NCBI RefSeq assembly: GCF_008691045.1
Contig: NZ_VMSO01000001.1
Location: 310,001 to 374,000, forward strand
From: Mediterraneibacter catenae
GTDB taxonomy: Bacteria > Bacillota > Clostridia > Lachnospirales > Lachnospiraceae
Length of the DNA: 64,000 nucleotides
Direction of reading: 5' to 3'
In this document: piece after piece, positions 11,086-56,982 of the stretch
How the letters are laid out: each line of letters begins with the position of its first letter
How positions within the stretch are numbered: position 1 is the stretch's first letter
The notes under the pieces: generated by a model
Seen by the model: only the letters and a program-made list of their open reading frames with translations
The model's database searches: none
Told to the model about the DNA's origin: nothing
Program-made: the position numbers and the translations under genes

Positions 11086-11122
11086 ACAGCAGGCAGGGAT
11101 CATACCCTGCCTGTGCTGTTTT
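11086..11122. terminator. Bidirectional terminator between cytX and the AraC gene
   Basis: ACAGCAGGCAGGG and CCCTGCCTGTGCTGT form a long stem followed by TTTT on the plus strand. The stop codon of the convergent AraC gene at 11100 lies inside the hairpin. Confidence 0.85.
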
Positions 11123-12032
11123 CCCGGTGCGGCAGAAACGGCAGCGATGGAGCTTCCCGGATAAACTGTTTCGGAGTCATGCCGTACTTTTTCTTAAATT
11201 CCCGGTAGAAATATGACAGATTGGAAAAACCGCATGACATGGAAACGTCAAGCACTGACCGGCCGCCCTGCGCTAAGCGCGAGGCGGCTTTTTCGAGTCT
11301 CAGGTTTTTGATGTATTCCAGACAGGAGATCCCAACATATTTTTTAAAAAAGCGCATGAAATGATATTCGCTGAAAAAGCAGAGTTTCGAAAGCTGAGGG
11401 ATTGTCAGATCTTCGGCGTAGTGTTCACTTATGTATTCCAGGACAAGTTTCAGTTTTGCCGTATGCTCATTTTCGAGCTGCGGCCTGATATTTTCAGTTT
11501 CTCTGTATGGTACCAGCAATGCTGTTGCATAGAGCAGCAGTGCTTTGAGCATCAGTTCATAACCGGGCTGCATTTCACTGTATGCACGCTCCATTTCATG
11601 AAAGACTTTCACAAGTTCAGGATAAACCGGGTGGTCTTCCTTTATGATATAGGGCAGCATTAGGGAATGCCTGCTGATCGGTGTCAGATATTTTACCGCA
11701 CATATATCAGCAGAGTCTGCATTAAGATAATCCATATGAAAGACATAAGTTGTAGATTTCATTTCTATTCCGGGTTTCATACTGATCGAGTGGAGTTCCG
11801 CGGGAGGAATGAACAGCAGGTCGCCCGCCTGTGCTTCGTAGGTCTCCAGGTGGATGTGGTAAGTGCAGGATCCGTCAGTGATGAGTGTCAGTTCCGCCTC
11901 CTCATGCCAGTGAGCAGTGACTGCCGGATAAAGATCTGAAAGGGCAGTGATATATCTTTTCAGTGGGAACATTTTCTCTCCATGCTGCGCCTGTTCTTTC
12001 TGTGACGGTGACAGTTCAAAATCAGATTTCAT
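11100..12032 (-). CDS. AraC-family transcriptional regulator with N-terminal cupin domain
   Basis: A 310-residue activator-type protein. Residues about 30-110 form a cupin-like sensing domain (TAHWHEEAELTLITDGSC, LFIPPAELHS), and residues about 205-305 carry the double HTH (LTIPQLSKLCFFSEYHFMRF, then VLDVSMSCGFSNLSYFYREFKKKYGMTPKQF). ATG 12032 is chosen because GGAGG lies 8 bp upstream; a TTG five codons earlier would overlap that site. It is divergent from a GH13 glucosidase gene. The shared intergenic region contains one of three copies of a composite motif that also precedes MFS and GH31 genes, so it is the leading candidate regulator of a scattered glucoside regulon. Confidence 0.9.
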   Translation of the reverse strand: MKSDFELSPSQKEQAQHGEKMFPLKRYITALSDLYPAVTAHWHEEAELTLITDGSCTYHIHLETYEAQAGDLLFIPPAELHSISMKPGIEMKSTTYVFHMDYLNADSADICAVKYLTPISRHSLMLPYIIKEDHPVYPELVKVFHEMERAYSEMQPGYELMLKALLLYATALLVPYRETENIRPQLENEHTAKLKLVLEYISEHYAEDLTIPQLSKLCFFSEYHFMRFFKKYVGISCLEYIKNLRLEKAASRLAQGGRSVLDVSMSCGFSNLSYFYREFKKKYGMTPKQFIREAPSLPFLPHRENSTGRV

Positions 12033-12057
12033 AAGATCATCCTCCAAAGCAGCAGAA

Positions 12058-12114
12058 TTGTGTTATTAATGCAAATGATTGTGCAAGATTTCTTTGCTTG
12101 ATTAAGCTTATAAT
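12058..12114 (+). promoter_or_regulatory. Composite AraC-type operator (site C) and promoter of the GH13 gene
   Basis: TTGTGTTAT (12058-12066), 15 bp, TGCAA (12082-12086), 22 bp, TATAAT (12109-12114). The -35 position is poor (AGATTT), which fits an activator-dependent promoter with the site overlapping -35. The same arrangement occurs before the MFS gene and the GH31 gene. Confidence 0.65.
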
Positions 12115-12171
12115 AACAGCATCATACAAAAAAAGCAATGTTATCAGGTGAAGAGAGGAGAGAAATCTATC

Positions 12172-13905
12172 ATGAAGAAAAAATGGTGGCATGACAAAGT
12201 GGCATATCAGATCTACCCGAAGAGTTTTCTGGATACAAATGGTGACGGAATCGGGGATCTTCGCGGAATTATCTCAAAACTTGATTATCTGAAGGATCTG
12301 GGGATCGATATTATCTGGCTGTCGCCCATCTACCAGTCCCCTTTTGTAGATCAGGGGTATGACATATCAGATTATTATAAGATTGCAGAAGAATTCGGTA
12401 CGATGGATGAATTTGATGAGCTGCTCGCCGAGGCTAAAAAACGGAATATGTACGTCCTGATGGATCTTGTTGTAAACCATTGTTCCGACAAGCATGAATG
12501 GTTTCAGAAAGCATTGGAAGATCCATACGGAAAATATGCGGGATACTTCCATTTTGTAAAAGGCAGAGACGGCAAGGCGCCGAGCAACTATCGGTCATAT
12601 TTTGGCGGCAGTGCGTGGGAGCCGGTACCGGGGACAGATCTGTATTATCTCCACATGTTTGCAAAAGAACAGCCGGATCTTAACTGGGAGAACCCTAAAC
12701 TGCGGGAAGAAATCTATAAGATGATCAACTGGTGGCTGGATAAGGGGCTGGCAGGTTTCCGTATCGATGCAATCATTAATATCAAGAAAGACCTGAGTTT
12801 TCCGTCGTTTGAGCCGGACGGACCGGACGGACTTGCATCCTGTGTGAAGATGGTAGAGGAAGTTGAAGGCGTCGGGGAGTATTTTGAAGATATCAAGCGG
12901 AATACATTCGCGAAATATGATGCGTTTACAGTGGCGGAAGTGTTCAATATGAAGGATGATGAGCTTGCGGAATTCATTGGTGATAACGGGCACTTCTCGT
13001 CAATGTTCGATTTCAGCGCCCACACGATGGCACAGGGAGAGAGCGGCTGGTACAACAGCAGAAAACCTTCTTTTAAGAAGTGGCGCGACACAATATTTGC
13101 ATCACAAATGAGGCTGCAGGAGGTAGGACATGCAGCGAATATCATTGAAAACCACGATGAGCCGAGAGGTGTAAGCCGTTTTCTTCCGGATCATGCACAG
13201 AATGAAGCCGGAAAGAAGATGCTGGCAACTACATCGATCCTCCTGTATGGTATTCCGTTTATCTATCAGGGGCAGGAAATCGGAATGACTAACTGCTGGA
13301 GAAGTGACATCTCGGAATATGATGATATCAGCACAAAAGACCAGTATCGGGAGGCGCTGGCCGCGGGATGCAGTAAAGAGCAGGCGCTGGAATACTGTTA
13401 TGAAAACAGCCGGGATAATGCGAGAACACCTCTGCAGTGGAGCGGCGCTTCGGAAGCGGGATTTACAGACGGGACGCCATGGCTGTCTGTCAATCCGAAT
13501 TATAAAGAGATCAATGTAGAGGAACAGGAACAACGGAAAGATTCTGTGCTTTCTTACTATAAGGCGCTCATTGCGTTGAAGAAATCCCCGGAGTATAAGG
13601 AAACCTTTACGTATGGAAGATTTGTTCCCGATTATGAGGAGAAGGAGGGGGTCTTTGCCTTCCACAGAATCTCAGCAGATGCTGCCGGAAACGGGGCAGA
13701 ATTAATGGAAGCGGCAAAAGGCGGAAAGCAGGATATCCTTGTGGCGGCAAACTATGGGACAGAAGCGTGCACGCTGGATCTGGACGGACGGACAGGTAAA
13801 GTGCTCTTATCCAATGTGGGAGAGGAGAAAACACGCAGCGAAGAGATTCGGACAGAAGGAACGATTACACTGCAAAGTTGTGAGTCGGCAGTAGTAATGC
13901 TGTAA
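12172..13905 (+). CDS. GH13 alpha-glucosidase (oligo-1,6-glucosidase / trehalose-6-phosphate hydrolase type)
   Basis: A 577-residue cytosolic GH13 subfamily-31-like enzyme that hydrolyses short alpha-glucosides. It opens MKKKWWHDKVAYQIYPKSF and has DTNGDGIGDLRGI, LMDLVVNHCSD, the nucleophile in GFRIDAI (near residue 200), the acid/base in FTVAEVFN (near 255) and IENHDEPR (near 328). There is no signal peptide. ATG 12172 is preferred; a GTG eight codons earlier lacks a ribosome site. It is divergent from an AraC regulator and is preceded by the composite AraC-type motif. The sequence alone does not separate isomaltose, sucrose or trehalose-phosphate specificity; no PTS gene is adjacent. Confidence 0.92.
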   Translation: MKKKWWHDKVAYQIYPKSFLDTNGDGIGDLRGIISKLDYLKDLGIDIIWLSPIYQSPFVDQGYDISDYYKIAEEFGTMDEFDELLAEAKKRNMYVLMDLVVNHCSDKHEWFQKALEDPYGKYAGYFHFVKGRDGKAPSNYRSYFGGSAWEPVPGTDLYYLHMFAKEQPDLNWENPKLREEIYKMINWWLDKGLAGFRIDAIINIKKDLSFPSFEPDGPDGLASCVKMVEEVEGVGEYFEDIKRNTFAKYDAFTVAEVFNMKDDELAEFIGDNGHFSSMFDFSAHTMAQGESGWYNSRKPSFKKWRDTIFASQMRLQEVGHAANIIENHDEPRGVSRFLPDHAQNEAGKKMLATTSILLYGIPFIYQGQEIGMTNCWRSDISEYDDISTKDQYREALAAGCSKEQALEYCYENSRDNARTPLQWSGASEAGFTDGTPWLSVNPNYKEINVEEQEQRKDSVLSYYKALIALKKSPEYKETFTYGRFVPDYEEKEGVFAFHRISADAAGNGAELMEAAKGGKQDILVAANYGTEACTLDLDGRTGKVLLSNVGEEKTRSEEIRTEGTITLQSCESAVVML

Positions 13906-16318: not shown

Positions 16319-17494
16319 TTAGTGTGCCGTCTTTTTTGACAGAAGTTCATGCATGATCACCATGAGGATCAGCAGAGCCATTATATATACAGGAAACAGA
16401 GCGATACTGATATGATTTGCAATGAGTCCGAAGATCGGCGGCATGAGACATGTGCCTACATAGGCGCTTGCCATCTGGACTCCGATCAGGGCCTGTGACC
16501 GTCCGGCACCGAAATGTGCCGGTGTGGAGTGGATAATGCACGGGTATACCGGAGCACATCCGAGACCGATAAGAATCAGGCCGGCAAGCGAGATGATATG
16601 GGGACCGGGCAACAGCATAACGATCACGCCGATCGCAATAATGCTCTGTCCCAGCCGGATCATCTGCGAGTCCTGTAATTTCATGGCGATAAATCCGTTT
16701 ATAGCGCGTCCGACGGTTATGCCGATGAAGAACATGCCGGCAAATCGTGCGGCAGTTTCTGCAGAAACTCCTTTAAATAAGGTGAGATAACTGCTGGCCC
16801 ACAAGCCGGCAGTCTGCTCGATCGCGCAGTAACAGAAGAAACACAGCATGACCTCTTTTGCTCCCGGAATCTTTATGATCTGAGGAAGTGCAAGAGGTTT
16901 TTCGAGTGCCGTATTTTCATTTGTATTTCCGGGCGACTCTGAAGTTTTTCGCTCTTTCCACAGGGGCAGGCTGAAGACCAGAATCGCGGTCAGCACAATC
17001 TGAAGCACGCCGATGTACAGATACCCTGTGTTCCATGTCTTTCCGCCGGACAGTGCAAATCCCATTATATAAGGGCCGACTGTGGCTCCTACACCCCACA
17101 TGCAGTGAAGCCAGCTCATGTGATGACTTTCATAATGAAGAGCAACGTAATTATTCAGTGCAGCGTCCACGCTTCCTGCGCCTAATCCGTAGGGAACGGC
17201 CCATACACAGAGCATCCAGAAGGCATGGGAAGAAGAGAATCCGAGCAGGGCAATGGCGGTCATTGCCACGCTGATCGCGGTGACCTTACCCGTTCCCAGC
17301 TTTCGTGTCAGCCGGTCGCTCTGCAGACTGGATATGATCGTGCCGAGAGCGATGATCATAGATATGATCCCGGCGTATGAGACAGGAACATCGAACTCCG
17401 AATACATTGTGGGCCAGGCAGATCCCAGGAGGGCGTCCGGAAGCCCGAGACTGATAAAAGCCAGATAAATAATTGCAAGCAGCAGGTGTATCAT
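16319..17494 (-). CDS. MFS transporter (FucP-like sugar porter type)
   Basis: A 391-residue major facilitator with 12 predicted segments. It begins with an uncleaved hydrophobic helix (LAIIYLAFISLGLPDALLGS), then LGTIISSLQSDRLTRKLGTGKV, the typical MFS loop 2-3, and a charged central loop at about 190-215. Layout and length resemble FucP-like and related sugar MFS proteins. Its promoter carries the same AraC-type composite element seen before the GH13 and GH31 glucosidase genes, so uptake of a glucoside or disaccharide is a reasonable inference. AAGGAG precedes ATG 17494. Confidence 0.85.
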   Translation of the reverse strand: MIHLLLAIIYLAFISLGLPDALLGSAWPTMYSEFDVPVSYAGIISMIIALGTIISSLQSDRLTRKLGTGKVTAISVAMTAIALLGFSSSHAFWMLCVWAVPYGLGAGSVDAALNNYVALHYESHHMSWLHCMWGVGATVGPYIMGFALSGGKTWNTGYLYIGVLQIVLTAILVFSLPLWKERKTSESPGNTNENTALEKPLALPQIIKIPGAKEVMLCFFCYCAIEQTAGLWASSYLTLFKGVSAETAARFAGMFFIGITVGRAINGFIAMKLQDSQMIRLGQSIIAIGVIVMLLPGPHIISLAGLILIGLGCAPVYPCIIHSTPAHFGAGRSQALIGVQMASAYVGTCLMPPIFGLIANHISIALFPVYIMALLILMVIMHELLSKKTAH

Positions 17495-17525: not shown

Positions 17526-17581
17526 ATTATAGTGCTGTAAGATCGGAAACGCTTGCAGTATACTGCAGGATTATAACACAA
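17526..17581 (-). promoter_or_regulatory. Composite AraC-type operator (site A) and promoter of the MFS gene
   Basis: Read on the minus strand: TTGTGTTAT (17581-17573), 15 bp, TGCAA (17557-17553), 21 bp, TATAAT (17531-17526). The TGCAA half lies in a perfect palindrome TGCAGTATACTGCA (17554-17567). The layout is the same as site B to the base pair. Confidence 0.65.
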
Positions 17582-17618
17582 AAATGCTCTCGGCCGTTTT
17601 AAACAGCCAAGAGCAGAT
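17582..17618 (-). terminator. Terminator downstream of asnA
   Basis: On the minus strand GCTCTTGGCTG and CGGCCGAGAGC form an 11-bp stem followed by ATTTTTG. It ends directly against the AraC-type operator of the MFS gene. Confidence 0.8.
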
Positions 17619-54101: not shown

Positions 54102-54725
54102 TTATTTGAGGCTTGAAATAAATTCCCATGCCTCAGGATCGAATTCTCTGTCTTTATAATAATATTTTTTATCCTCATCTGTGATCTGTCTGATCACTCT
54201 GCATGGATTCCCTGCCGCAACGACCCAGTCAGGGATATCTTTCGTTACTACGCTTCCGGCACCGATGACTGTGTTGCTCCCGATATGGACTCCTGGCATA
54301 ATAACGGTGTTTCCTCCGATCCAGACATTGTCACCGATGGTCACGCTGATGCCGTACTCGTAAAGGGAGTTGCGGGAGACCGGATGAATAGGGTGCCCGG
54401 CAGTGTAGACCGCTACGTTTGGCGCCATCTGGCAGTTGTCACCAATCTTTACTTTTGCAACGTCTATGATCGTACAGTTATAGTTTGCAAAGAAGTTTTT
54501 CCCGACTTCGATGTGGGAGCCGTAATCACAGTAGAACGGCGGATTGATAAATGCTCCGTCAGACTTTCCGAGCAGTTCTTTGACAATCTTACCGATCTCG
54601 TCAAAATCAGAACGGTCGACGGTGTTCAGGCGCTGCAGGATCTTACGGCAGACTTTCTGTTCTTCCATTACGGAATCATCGGAAATATAAGCCATTTCTT
54701 TGTCTCTTCTCTCAATATTATCCAT
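54102..54725 (-). CDS. Maltose/galactoside O-acetyltransferase-like enzyme (hexapeptide repeat)
   Basis: A 207-residue left-handed beta-helix acyltransferase. The N-terminal maltose acetyltransferase cap is at about 12-60; hexapeptide repeats follow, with FINPPFYCDYGSHIEVGKNF, the catalytic His in TAGHPIHPVSR, and GDNVWIGGNTVIMPGVHIG. It transfers acetyl from acetyl-CoA to a sugar. AAAAAAGGAGAAAAA precedes ATG 54725. It lies downstream of the GH31 glucosidase in the same direction, with a 21-bp perfect hairpin between them, so it may detoxify excess sugars in the same pathway (inference). Confidence 0.92.
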   Translation of the reverse strand: MDNIERRDKEMAYISDDSVMEEQKVCRKILQRLNTVDRSDFDEIGKIVKELLGKSDGAFINPPFYCDYGSHIEVGKNFFANYNCTIIDVAKVKIGDNCQMAPNVAVYTAGHPIHPVSRNSLYEYGISVTIGDNVWIGGNTVIMPGVHIGSNTVIGAGSVVTKDIPDWVVAAGNPCRVIRQITDEDKKYYYKDREFDPEAWEFISSLK

Positions 54726-54795: not shown

Positions 54796-56820
54796 TTATT
54801 TTAATATGCGACAGTTTTTCTCAAGATCATAATCTTTATGAACTCCGTCATCATCGTAGAGCATGTATTCTGCCCCTTCATAACCGATCAGCCGGATTGT
54901 ATCTGTATCGATTTCATCCACGCATTCCGCCGCATCTGCCACGGGGATGCATTTTCCGGCGCGGATGAACAGCGGTACTTCGTTGAGCGCGATATCCACA
55001 TAGTGGATGCCTTTTCCAAGGATCTCTTCAGAGATACTTCCATCAGGCAGAAATTTGACGAATTTCATTTCTTCCGGCAGGTATACATATCTGCCTTTCC
55101 CATTCTGCTCGTAGACCGGTGCGATCATAATCTCATTGCCGAGCATGAGCTGATCTTCGATGCGGGACGCCATTTTGTCCTCCGGATAGACGAAGGCGAG
55201 CGGTTTGAAATACATATCGTCGTTCAGTGCAGCTTTCATGTACTCGCTGTACAGATAGGGCAGAAGGCGGTATCTGACGCCGACTACATGGCGAAAATCT
55301 TCCATGTCCTCAAACTGATAACATTCCTGCTCCCTTGTACCGAGAGCTGAGTGATTTCTCATGAGCGGTGTGAATACGCCCAGCGCCAGGAAACGGAGCA
55401 GAAGGTCTCTTGTAGTGTCGGACCCGAATCCGCCCAGATCAGCTCCCGTATAGAGAAATCCGCACATATTGAGTGATGGCATCATCTTCAGGTTGAGCAG
55501 GATATGTGACCACCAGGAGCGGTTGTCACCTGTCCATACGCCGCCGTAGCGATGCATTCCGACATAGGAGGAACGGGAGAACATCAGGAAACGTCTGTCT
55601 GGATTGATGCGCTCAAACGCTTCGCCTGCGGCTCTTGTCATATTAAATCCATACAGATTGTGGACCTTGTCGTGACGGATTTTCCTGCCGTTTACATTAT
55701 GATAAAATCTCTTATAATCATCCTGGCTGTTTGCGAGACTTGTAAGTTTGCCGCCGAGCTGCCAGACGCCGATATCATCCCCGCCTTCGGACTTCTTTTC
55801 ACTGCCGTCCCAATTGCAGCTTCCGGTCTCGGCAAACTTGCGTGCCATCTCTTTTGCTTCTTCAAGACCTTCTTTCGAGTAGAAGATCGCAGGCTCGTTC
55901 ATATCGTTCCAGAATCCTTCGATACCCTGGTCCGTGAGGAAACGATATTTATCTCCGAACCATTTCCGCGCCTCAGGATTCAGTACATCTGGGAAATGTG
56001 TGTCACCCGGCCATACTGCCGCTACGAAGTCGCTTCCGTCTTCCCTCTGGCAGAAGTAGCGGTTCTGTACACCTTCTTCGTATACATCATAGCCGTCCTC
56101 TATTTTTACGCCTGCGTCGATAATCGGAACAAGACGGATATGCTGATCTTTCATCTCCTGTACGAATCCGGAAAAATCCCGGAAATCATCATTTACAGTA
56201 AAATCCTTGTAGGAATCCATATAATCGATATCCATATAGATCATATCCAGCGGAATGTGATTCTCACGGTAGCCCTGGGCAACCTTTTTAAAATCTTCTT
56301 TTGTCTTATATCCCCAGCGGCTCTGGCCGAAGCCGAAGGCGAATTTCGGCGGGATATAGCTGTGCCCGATAATCTTACGGAACTGCTTAACGATCCCGTA
56401 AGGGGTATCACCATCGATAACGTACAGTGCAAGATTGGCATCCTCGCAGGAAACTCTCAGGGTATCCATACGCGTATAGCCGATATCAAATGTCAGCTTT
56501 GAAGGATAATCGAAGAACAGTCCGAAACTTTTCTTACCGGAGATGATAATGAAGTTATATGCACCGTAGAGAGAGAACTTGTCCTCTGTGTGGTTTGGAT
56601 CGTCCGAGCAATTGCTGATATAGCAGTACCCGCGCTTGTTGATGCCGCGGTTGGATTCACCCAGACCGTATACGATATCCTCCTCGTCCATGATATAAGT
56701 AAAAGAAAAACCATCCTGTGTATCAATGACGCCGTATGCAGGGGCACCGTCAGATGCAGAGATGCCGTACACTACTGCCTCTGTCTCAAAAGGTGTTCCA
56801 TAGGTATATTTTCGGATCAT
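54796..56820 (-). CDS. GH31 family alpha-glucosidase
   Basis: A 674-residue retaining glycosidase without signal peptide. The N-terminal beta-sandwich includes EDIVYGLGESNRGINKRG; the barrel has FAFGFGQSRWGYKTKEDF, IPLDMIYMDIDYMDSYKDF, the nucleophile Asp in GFWNDMNEPAIF, RRFLMFSRSSYVG, the acid/base Asp in GGVWTGDNRSWW, and YTGADLGGFG. ATG 56820 follows AAAGGAGG. GH31 enzymes release glucose from the non-reducing end of alpha-glucosides. The promoter carries the AraC-type composite element shared with the GH13 and MFS genes. Confidence 0.94.
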   Translation of the reverse strand: MIRKYTYGTPFETEAVVYGISASDGAPAYGVIDTQDGFSFTYIMDEEDIVYGLGESNRGINKRGYCYISNCSDDPNHTEDKFSLYGAYNFIIISGKKSFGLFFDYPSKLTFDIGYTRMDTLRVSCEDANLALYVIDGDTPYGIVKQFRKIIGHSYIPPKFAFGFGQSRWGYKTKEDFKKVAQGYRENHIPLDMIYMDIDYMDSYKDFTVNDDFRDFSGFVQEMKDQHIRLVPIIDAGVKIEDGYDVYEEGVQNRYFCQREDGSDFVAAVWPGDTHFPDVLNPEARKWFGDKYRFLTDQGIEGFWNDMNEPAIFYSKEGLEEAKEMARKFAETGSCNWDGSEKKSEGGDDIGVWQLGGKLTSLANSQDDYKRFYHNVNGRKIRHDKVHNLYGFNMTRAAGEAFERINPDRRFLMFSRSSYVGMHRYGGVWTGDNRSWWSHILLNLKMMPSLNMCGFLYTGADLGGFGSDTTRDLLLRFLALGVFTPLMRNHSALGTREQECYQFEDMEDFRHVVGVRYRLLPYLYSEYMKAALNDDMYFKPLAFVYPEDKMASRIEDQLMLGNEIMIAPVYEQNGKGRYVYLPEEMKFVKFLPDGSISEEILGKGIHYVDIALNEVPLFIRAGKCIPVADAAECVDEIDTDTIRLIGYEGAEYMLYDDDGVHKDYDLEKNCRILK

Positions 56821-56865
56821 GATATTTCCTCCTTTGATTTTATCCGGTTGGATCATTCTGATTGT

Positions 56866-56921
56866 ATTATAATGCCTTGCCCGAGAGAAAACTTGCAGTA
56901 TTCTGCAAAGTTATGACACAA
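56866..56921 (-). promoter_or_regulatory. Composite AraC-type operator (site B) and promoter of the GH31 gene
   Basis: Minus strand: TTGTGTCAT (56921-56913), 15 bp, TGCAA (56897-56893), 21 bp, TATAAT (56871-56866). The TGCAA half is in TTGCAG-TATT-CTGCAA (56893-56908). Spacing is identical to site A before the MFS gene. The divergent GH2 promoter begins 33 bp further right. Confidence 0.65.
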
Positions 56922-56953
56922 AACTGGCTTTTATATACAGGCCGTCAGCGCGC

Positions 56954-56982
56954 TTGACATCTTCCGGGTGATTCTGCACAAT
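56954..56982 (+). promoter_or_regulatory. Promoter of the GH2 gene
   Basis: TTGACA and CACAAT with 17-bp spacing, 57 bp before ATG 57039. The strong -35 suggests it does not strictly need the nearby AraC-type site. Confidence 0.6.

Follow-up and report, generated by a model that had tools for sequence, protein, structure and literature searches.

Do the genes for a GH13 alpha-glucosidase, an MFS transporter and a GH31 alpha-glucosidase in Mediterraneibacter catenae answer to one AraC-type activator, and if so, to which? Within the window, the whole stretch of 64,000 nucleotides that was analysed, a preliminary description had placed one composite element upstream of each of the three genes and had tentatively assigned it to the AraC-family regulator AraC1. 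From sequence comparison, we consider it probable that an AraC-type alpha-glucoside activator uses the element as its operator-promoter and that, at the GH13 gene, the element forms part of a bidirectional promoter with araC1.

The composite element and the genes it precedes

The element was present letter for letter at 12058-12114 (+), 17581-17526 (-) and 56921-56866 (-), designated sites A, B and C, and each copy was directed at the gene downstream of it (GH13, MFS and GH31, respectively), as first described. The TTGTGTYAT-15-TGCAA core is real but covers only the inner portion of a pair of longer half-sites, GCAGNATTNTGYNAT (box1) and NNNNNATNNTGCAAG (box2), of 15-16 bp each, which form a direct repeat; site A had likewise been placed correctly, but it starts 6 bp more 5' than had been given (Table 1). 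The distance from box1 to box2 was 21 bp in 51/65 elements and 22 bp in 14/65 (20-23 bp was allowed), and box2 was followed by 19-20 bp and then by the -10 sequence, which was TATAAT in 61/65. Direct correlation of box1 with box2 was 0.66 in register and never exceeded 0.27 in other registers. The hexamers 17 bp 5' of TATAAT shared 0 (site A), 1 (site B) and 1 (site C) of 6 bases with TTGACA, and the place of the -35 was covered by box2, the promoter-proximal half-site, in agreement with the poor -35 and the overlap claimed earlier. A direct repeat of ~21 bp with its promoter-proximal half-site over a poor -35 is the layout of AraC-type activator sites, and the element is thus a predicted operator.

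The genome-wide check proposed earlier indicated that the motif is rare, with 3 strict sites in the 3.18-Mb genome. The element matched 3 times in the window and 0 times in any of 100 dinucleotide-preserving shuffles. Relaxing the pattern, by dropping the first T and allowing 20-23 bp before TATAAT, gave 3 matches in the 3.18-Mb genome, all in the window, and the reversed control gave 0 in the same genome. Site B of this genome continues into TGCAAGCGTTTCC at 17557-17545 (-), which we take to resemble a CcpA cre box; several relatives have TGCAAGCAATTCC there.

Table 1 Coordinates of genes and predicted regulatory features in the window
Feature	Coordinates	Strand	Basis and details
AraC1, AraC-family regulator, 310 aa, cupin-type sensor and two-HTH domain	11100..12032	-	Pfam HTH_AraC, HTH_18, AraC_binding
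Site A box1 GCAGAATTGTGTTATT	12052..12067	+	Orthologue alignment; GCAG in 30/30 GH13 promoters
Site A box2 AAATGATTGTGCAAGA	12073..12088	+	21 bp after box1; overlaps weak -35
GH13 -10 TATAAT	12109..12114	+	TATAAT then A in 30/30 orthologues
araC1 predicted -10 TATTAT	12110..12115	-	TGT extension 12116-12118
box3, candidate half-site ACAGCATCATACAAA	12116..12130	+	Inside araC1 promoter spacer
araC1 predicted -35 TTGCTT (TTGNNN)	12133..12138	-	Exactly 17 bp spacer
GH13 alpha-glucosidase	12172..13905	+	Pfam Alpha-amylase; best PDB match 2ze0; GFRIDAI motif
MFS transporter	16319..17494	-	Pfam MFS_1
Site B	17526..17587	-	box1 17587-17572, box2 17566-17551, -10 17531-17526; precedes MFS gene
maa, hexapeptide sugar O-acetyltransferase	54102..54725	-	Pfam Mac, Hexapep; 70 bp downstream of GH31
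GH31 alpha-glucosidase, close homologue of PDB 3n04	54796..56856	-	
Site C	56866..56927	-	box1 56927-56912, box2 56906-56891, -10 56871-56866; precedes GH31

The GFRIDAI motif of the GH13 protein is presumably that of an alpha-1,4-type enzyme. The GH31 protein aligned with PDB 3n04 over 675 residues (1,247 bits) and keeps SRWGY, in which W is residue 172 of the chain sequence; we take this residue to be Trp169, which is tied to the isomaltose preference of the Ruminococcus obeum enzyme. Together, the GH31/GH13 pair may split isomaltose- and maltose-type bonds. The maa gene adjoins GH31 in 15/30 loci and is likely in one operon with it. The suggestion that a divergent GH2 gene uses the GH31 site (site C) was not upheld, since GH2 has its own TTGACA-N17-CACAAT and lies beside GH31 in 6/30 loci (1.5-kb flanks). 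This GH2 sequence is located at 56954-56982, with a half-site-like GATTCTGCACAA over its -10.

Distribution in the genus and the candidate readers

Upstream DNA was taken from 30 loci per orthologue set, out of 58 genus genomes in which some match was found to GH13 in 56 (E 1e-100), to GH31 in 44 (1e-100) and to MFS in 38 (1e-60). The two-half-site pattern reached at least 17/21 at 30/30 GH13, 26/30 GH31 and 9/30 MFS loci examined; the genomes are related, so that these counts are non-independent events, and the consensus was derived from the same promoters that were scored, so that they are a description and not a blind test. In 1,800 base-shuffled regions scored with the same pattern, the 99.9th percentile was 16 and the maximum 17, and exactly 17 was scored by 3 of the 65 accepted promoters. 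Two outcomes had been named as speaking against an AraC-type regulon of GH13, MFS and GH31, namely a motif common and unrelated to sugar genes genome-wide, and no conservation in close relatives. The motif is rare and the sites are kept in relatives, and the core of the proposal stands, but the MFS site is missing in 21/30 loci. In some relatives (e.g. G002, G062) the MFS gene lies almost directly after asnA and lacks the element; other relatives (e.g. G005, G016, G073) have MFS and araC1 next to each other on the same strand.

Two sequence-only profiles were generated with the window's genome left out, R1 from 29 GH13 elements and R2 from 25 GH31 and 8 MFS elements. In the window, R1 scored site A at 53.4 bits, followed by C at 11.8 and B at 11.5, both weak in absolute terms, and next 5.5. 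R2 scored C at 56.0 bits, B at 46.9 and A at 26.3, followed by 11.8 and 9.4, which are C and B read on the reverse strand, and then 6.0. Each gene class's profile therefore finds the other class, because C and B come second and third with R1 and A comes third with R2.

When R2 was applied to the whole of the same genome, C, B and A were followed by a fourth site at G000:C25:6782-6841 (19.1 bits, E 0.004; 28.9 bits with R1) and then by two weak partial matches. The fourth site lies between a carbohydrate (glycogen) phosphorylase gene, after which comes a 4-alpha-glucanotransferase gene (malQ), and a divergent AraC-family gene, AraC2. Of the three-site regulon under one AraC protein that had been proposed, the three sites stood, yet the fourth lies beside a paralogue that is a second candidate reader. 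The AraC-type regulon is well supported, is wider than first noted and is probably common to the two paralogues. AraC1 has the C-terminal double HTH and the N-terminal sugar-sensing, cupin-like domain of the AraC family (Pfam scores of 79.8 bits for HTH_AraC, 76.3 for HTH_18 and 49.1 for AraC_binding), and orthologues occur in 38/58 genus genomes, in pieces in G020 and G008. AraC2 is 30% identical to AraC1, and their helix residues are mostly common (SEYHFMRFFK versus SKSHFMKFFK, NLSYFYREFK versus NLSYFNRIFK) in segments that, from family knowledge, we take to be the AraC recognition helices. In the AraC2 neighbourhoods a phosphorylase-like coding start lies downstream of the element in 17/19, the other 2 stretches having ended too early; the phosphorylase was identified by Pfam in the window's own genome alone and in relatives by a similar coding start. 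A MoeA/CinA-like gene, recognised by eye, adjoins AraC2 at L218 6173-7396, and likewise at L019 and L020.

Across the 58 genomes (E up to 0.02, with stricter filters), R2 gave 117 hits of at least 20 bits, 116 of them assigned by position: GH31 39, AraC2-side gene 33, GH13 29, MFS 9, maa 4, second MFS 1 and GH13 paralogue 1, with 1 unlabelled. These labels are positional and were entered by hand, the maa and second-MFS genes being initially identified by eye, and 33 GH31/MFS elements were the training set of R2. One of the 33 AraC2-side hits was labelled through the phosphorylase itself. Hits below 20 bits in unrelated places (G001, G059, G066:C7, G053:C85, G041:C13 and others) were taken as noise, as were the weak matches of R1, which at E up to 1 found some match in 58/58 genomes. 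When the named loci were searched with a profile, 13 matches were obtained from 18 sources at E 0.1. An element of 24.6 bits near a contig start, at G049:C172:273-332, has no gene assigned to it. In G041 (30.8 bits) and G053 (19.0 bits), where the window's MFS type was not found at E 1e-60, the element accompanies the second MFS type; the protein of this type belongs to MFS_1 and did not match the window's MFS at 1e-15. Maa-like genes in 5 other genomes, recognised by eye, have separate elements, of which the fifth, in G056, was detected by R1 only.

Of the genomes with AraC1 or AraC2 (E 1e-40), 47/49 had an R2 hit at or above 20 bits (exceptions G052 and G064), as did 2/9 genomes with neither (G023 and G012), a co-occurrence that related species inflate. 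In G023 the hit is the site of the phosphorylase, located where a contig starts, and in G012 the GH31 element is present with neither AraC found at E 1e-40. Sites thus stand before linked genes and are lost with the regulator, except in the AraC1-less genomes that keep the GH31 site, which AraC2 and contig gaps explain in part. These genomes were rejected as plain counter-examples: AraC2 partly accounts for them, and in G023 and G048 the N-terminal end of the GH13 orthologue is cut by a contig edge, so that AraC1 may be absent from the assembly only.

The first letters of box1 (the A-box) separate the elements further. Box1 starts with GCAG in all GH13 elements (Table 1) and with ATAG in 29/29 elements beside AraC2 or its phosphorylase. 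At MFS it begins with GCA in 8/9 elements, and at GH31 in AraC1-bearing genomes with GCA in 29/30, the window having CCA. The GH31 box1 of AraC1-less genomes has A first in 7/9 elements (8 genomes), the exceptions being G023 and G048; these genomes are few and probably related, and the pattern supports an assignment without proving it. Because the A-box is GC beside AraC1 and AT beside AraC2, AraC1 is favoured as the reader of sites A to C. The pattern favours a division in which AraC1 would read sites B and C, and AraC2 would read the GH31 site where AraC1 is absent. The A-box rule, GC versus AT, is thus predicted to separate the two paralogues.

Alternatively, AraC2 might read B and C, alone or with AraC1, in one overlapping alpha-glucan regulon, which we regard as possible but doubtful. 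Its recognition helices, nearly identical to those of AraC1, could read B and C here, and R2 found an element on the divergent side of AraC2 in 39/48 AraC2 genomes, AraC1-less ones among them. The GH31 element, present at 20/20 loci with AraC1, is also retained in 6/10 AraC1-less genomes, and therefore another reader, probably AraC2, acts there. However, the A-boxes of GH31 and MFS in AraC1-bearing genomes are GC-type, as beside AraC1, rather than AT-type, and G050, G057, G061 and G064 have AraC2 but neither AraC1 nor a GH31 element.

The region between GH13 and araC1

The GH13 -10 reads TATAATA, a symmetric sequence proposed to be common to GH13 and araC1. The opposed arrangement TTGNNN-N14-TGT-TATTAT was found in 30/30 orthologous GH13 promoters and in 0/35 GH31 and MFS sites. 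By component, the opposed TTG was present in 30/30 GH13, 0/26 GH31 and 0/9 MFS promoters and the TG extension in 30/30, 1/26 and 0/9; the opposed TATTAT was found in 30/30 GH13 promoters, and an opposed -10 matching 5 of 6 at 11/26 GH31 and 5/9 MFS. Downstream of the -10, the 30 GH13 orthologues carry TATAATAACAGCATCATACAA (one base different in 4/30) and then CAA. Column information was 2.0 bits for the -10, 1.95 for the next 15 bases and 2.0 for each TTG base, and it was 0.6 bits in the upstream spacer and 0.26 beyond the -35 hexamer. The TTG of this hexamer is constant in 30/30, and its next three bases vary. In this genome the araC1 -35 has 3 of 6 consensus matches, and the araC1 promoter was not reported by a simple sigma-70 scan (16-18-bp spacer, 9 of 12). 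One Lachnospiraceae MAG, Candidatus Fimousia and two Candidatus Choladousia loci also have the opposed TTG with TGT-TATTAT. G008 (L018), of the same genus but outside the 30, has no such TTG at its GH13 gene, Roseburia L156 has not kept the TTG, and G025 shows neither TTG nor TGT-TATTAT.

Transcription starts predicted 7 bases past each -10 fall near 12121 (+) and 12103 (-), 18 bp apart. With a symmetric -10 and upstream elements of their own in each direction, GH13 and araC1 appear to share a single -10 in a predicted bidirectional promoter. If araC1 starts near 12103, its leader would contain box1 and box2. The possibility that site A is a mere part of the adjacent araC1 promoter was rejected, as box1 and box2 lie outside that promoter.

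Within the spacer of the opposed promoter, ACAGCATCATACAA resembles a half-site and was designated box3, a candidate third half-site 42 bp from box2 in 28/30 orthologues and 43 bp in 2, including this genome. The changes seen in 4/30 fit a half-site, since a C to T change falls at a free position and others, C to T and A to G, bring the sequence closer to the consensus. Its scores are modest, 4.8-12.4 bits versus means of ~16.8 for box1 and box2, with non-independent shuffle p values of 0.005-0.08 (4.8 bits and p = 0.045 in this genome). Box3 is kept as AACAGTATCATACAA in two Roseburia loci, and no box3-like block stands out at GH31 or MFS elements. We tentatively suggest that the araC1-GH13 region could be a self-contained switch of ~90 bp, in which an AraC1 dimer would move between a box1-box2 state and a box3 state. 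Bound at box1-box2, the dimer would turn GH13 on and araC1 off by polymerase competition; holding box3 within the opposed promoter, it would turn off both directions. A half-site ~42 bp from box2 would then replace the distant looping site of E. coli AraC.

The block 3' of the GH13 -10 could instead belong to the GH13 leader, as a feature at the RNA level or at the start site, and be neither a promoter nor an operator of araC1. We consider this unlikely, since TTG lies at exactly 17 bp in every one of the 30 promoters while the next three -35 bases vary, and conservation drops past the hexamer. The position of the block at the predicted GH13 transcription start would nevertheless suit a leader feature, as would the modest score of box3 and the retention of part of the block without the opposed TTG in Roseburia and G008.

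Proposed mechanism and related systems

A dimeric regulator of a different kind could be proposed for B and C, in which a TGCAG-N4-CTGCA palindrome would be its operator and site A a chance likeness. Both sites contain a near-perfect TGCAGNNNNCTGCA, and the correlation of box1 with box2 in reverse complement, 0.81 across an overlap of 12 columns, exceeds the direct one. The palindrome is missing from the GH13 and AraC2-side sites, in which the direct repeat and spacing are retained, for which reason the palindromic operator of a non-AraC dimer was rejected, and the reciprocal finding of each class by the other's profile makes this explanation highly improbable. Chance resemblance among AT-rich promoters, to which the degeneracy of single half-sites and the ubiquitous R1 matches at E up to 1 might point, is contradicted for the three sites by the shuffles, the genome rarity, the orthologue conservation, the cross-profiles and the genus scan and has practically no likelihood.

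From the observed sites, spacing, conservation, rarity, co-occurrence and opposed promoter-like sequence, we infer the following sequence of binding, induction, activation and competition. An AraC1 dimer would bind the two 15-16-bp half-sites of the direct repeat, two helical turns apart, and with a non-consensus -35 under the downstream half-site, polymerase would be recruited to TATAAT mainly when AraC1 is present. The inducer would most likely be an alpha-glucoside in the cupin domain of AraC1, and activation would switch on GH13, the MFS porter and GH31-maa; AraC2 would play an equal role for glycogen phosphorylase-malQ. The TATAATA would also serve araC1 on the other strand through its own TTGNNN-N14-TG element. 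If polymerase leaves one way at a time, activation of GH13 would lower araC1 transcription, a built-in negative feedback.

The comparison yields a predicted operator code of AraC type for the use of alpha-glucans in a common gut family, together with a natural case, in 30 genomes of one genus, of an activator gene apparently sharing a -10 with one of its targets. Each part belongs to a known kind, and what stands out is the conserved arrangement of regulator and target on a predicted bidirectional promoter; a literature search on the motif, the regulon, the promoter arrangement, the GH31 enzyme and AraC half-sites, with most subscription journals outside its scope, gave no recognised description.

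In the Gram-positive polysaccharide utilisation loci of Roseburia/E. rectale, AraC-type genes lie beside glycoside hydrolase genes, and the cited part of that survey describes one starch and one glycogen locus with LacI-type regulators, one also with AsrR (PMC5320581). AraC genes are near GH genes both there and here, and no AraC operator is given in that part of the survey. The cited part of a Bifidobacterium study describes MalR1/2/3, paralogous LacI-type regulators with one motif over alpha-glucosidases, glgP and malQ (PMC4746261). Paralogous regulators and a common motif are likewise seen here, although the sites are AraC-type direct repeats rather than LacI-type operators.

The half-sites of E. 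coli AraC repeat at 21 bp, with a 4-bp overlap of the -35. At araI1-araI2 the half-sites are neighbours and the promoter-proximal one recruits polymerase, according to the cited part of PMC4760080. Paired half-sites and an activator gene divergent from its target are found here too, but the half-site sequence, sugar and phylum are different, and regulator and target appear to share a -10.

SoxS is itself a member of the AraC family. In the bidirectional promoters of Warman and Grainger, e.g. PacrA/acrR and PsoxS/soxR, one symmetric -10 serves both ways, 18 bp is the commonest start spacing in E. coli, and SoxS activates acrA and represses acrR at their shared promoter via polymerase competition, as described in the cited part of PMC12825309. 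As in those promoters, a symmetric -10 is seen here, with predicted starts 18 bp apart, and activation one way could repress the other, so that the polymerase-competition rule proposed for E. coli becomes testable as feedback at araC1-GH13. Unlike those promoters, the one described here belongs to the Lachnospiraceae, has a half-site-like block in the opposed spacer and would place the activator's own gene on the repressed side.
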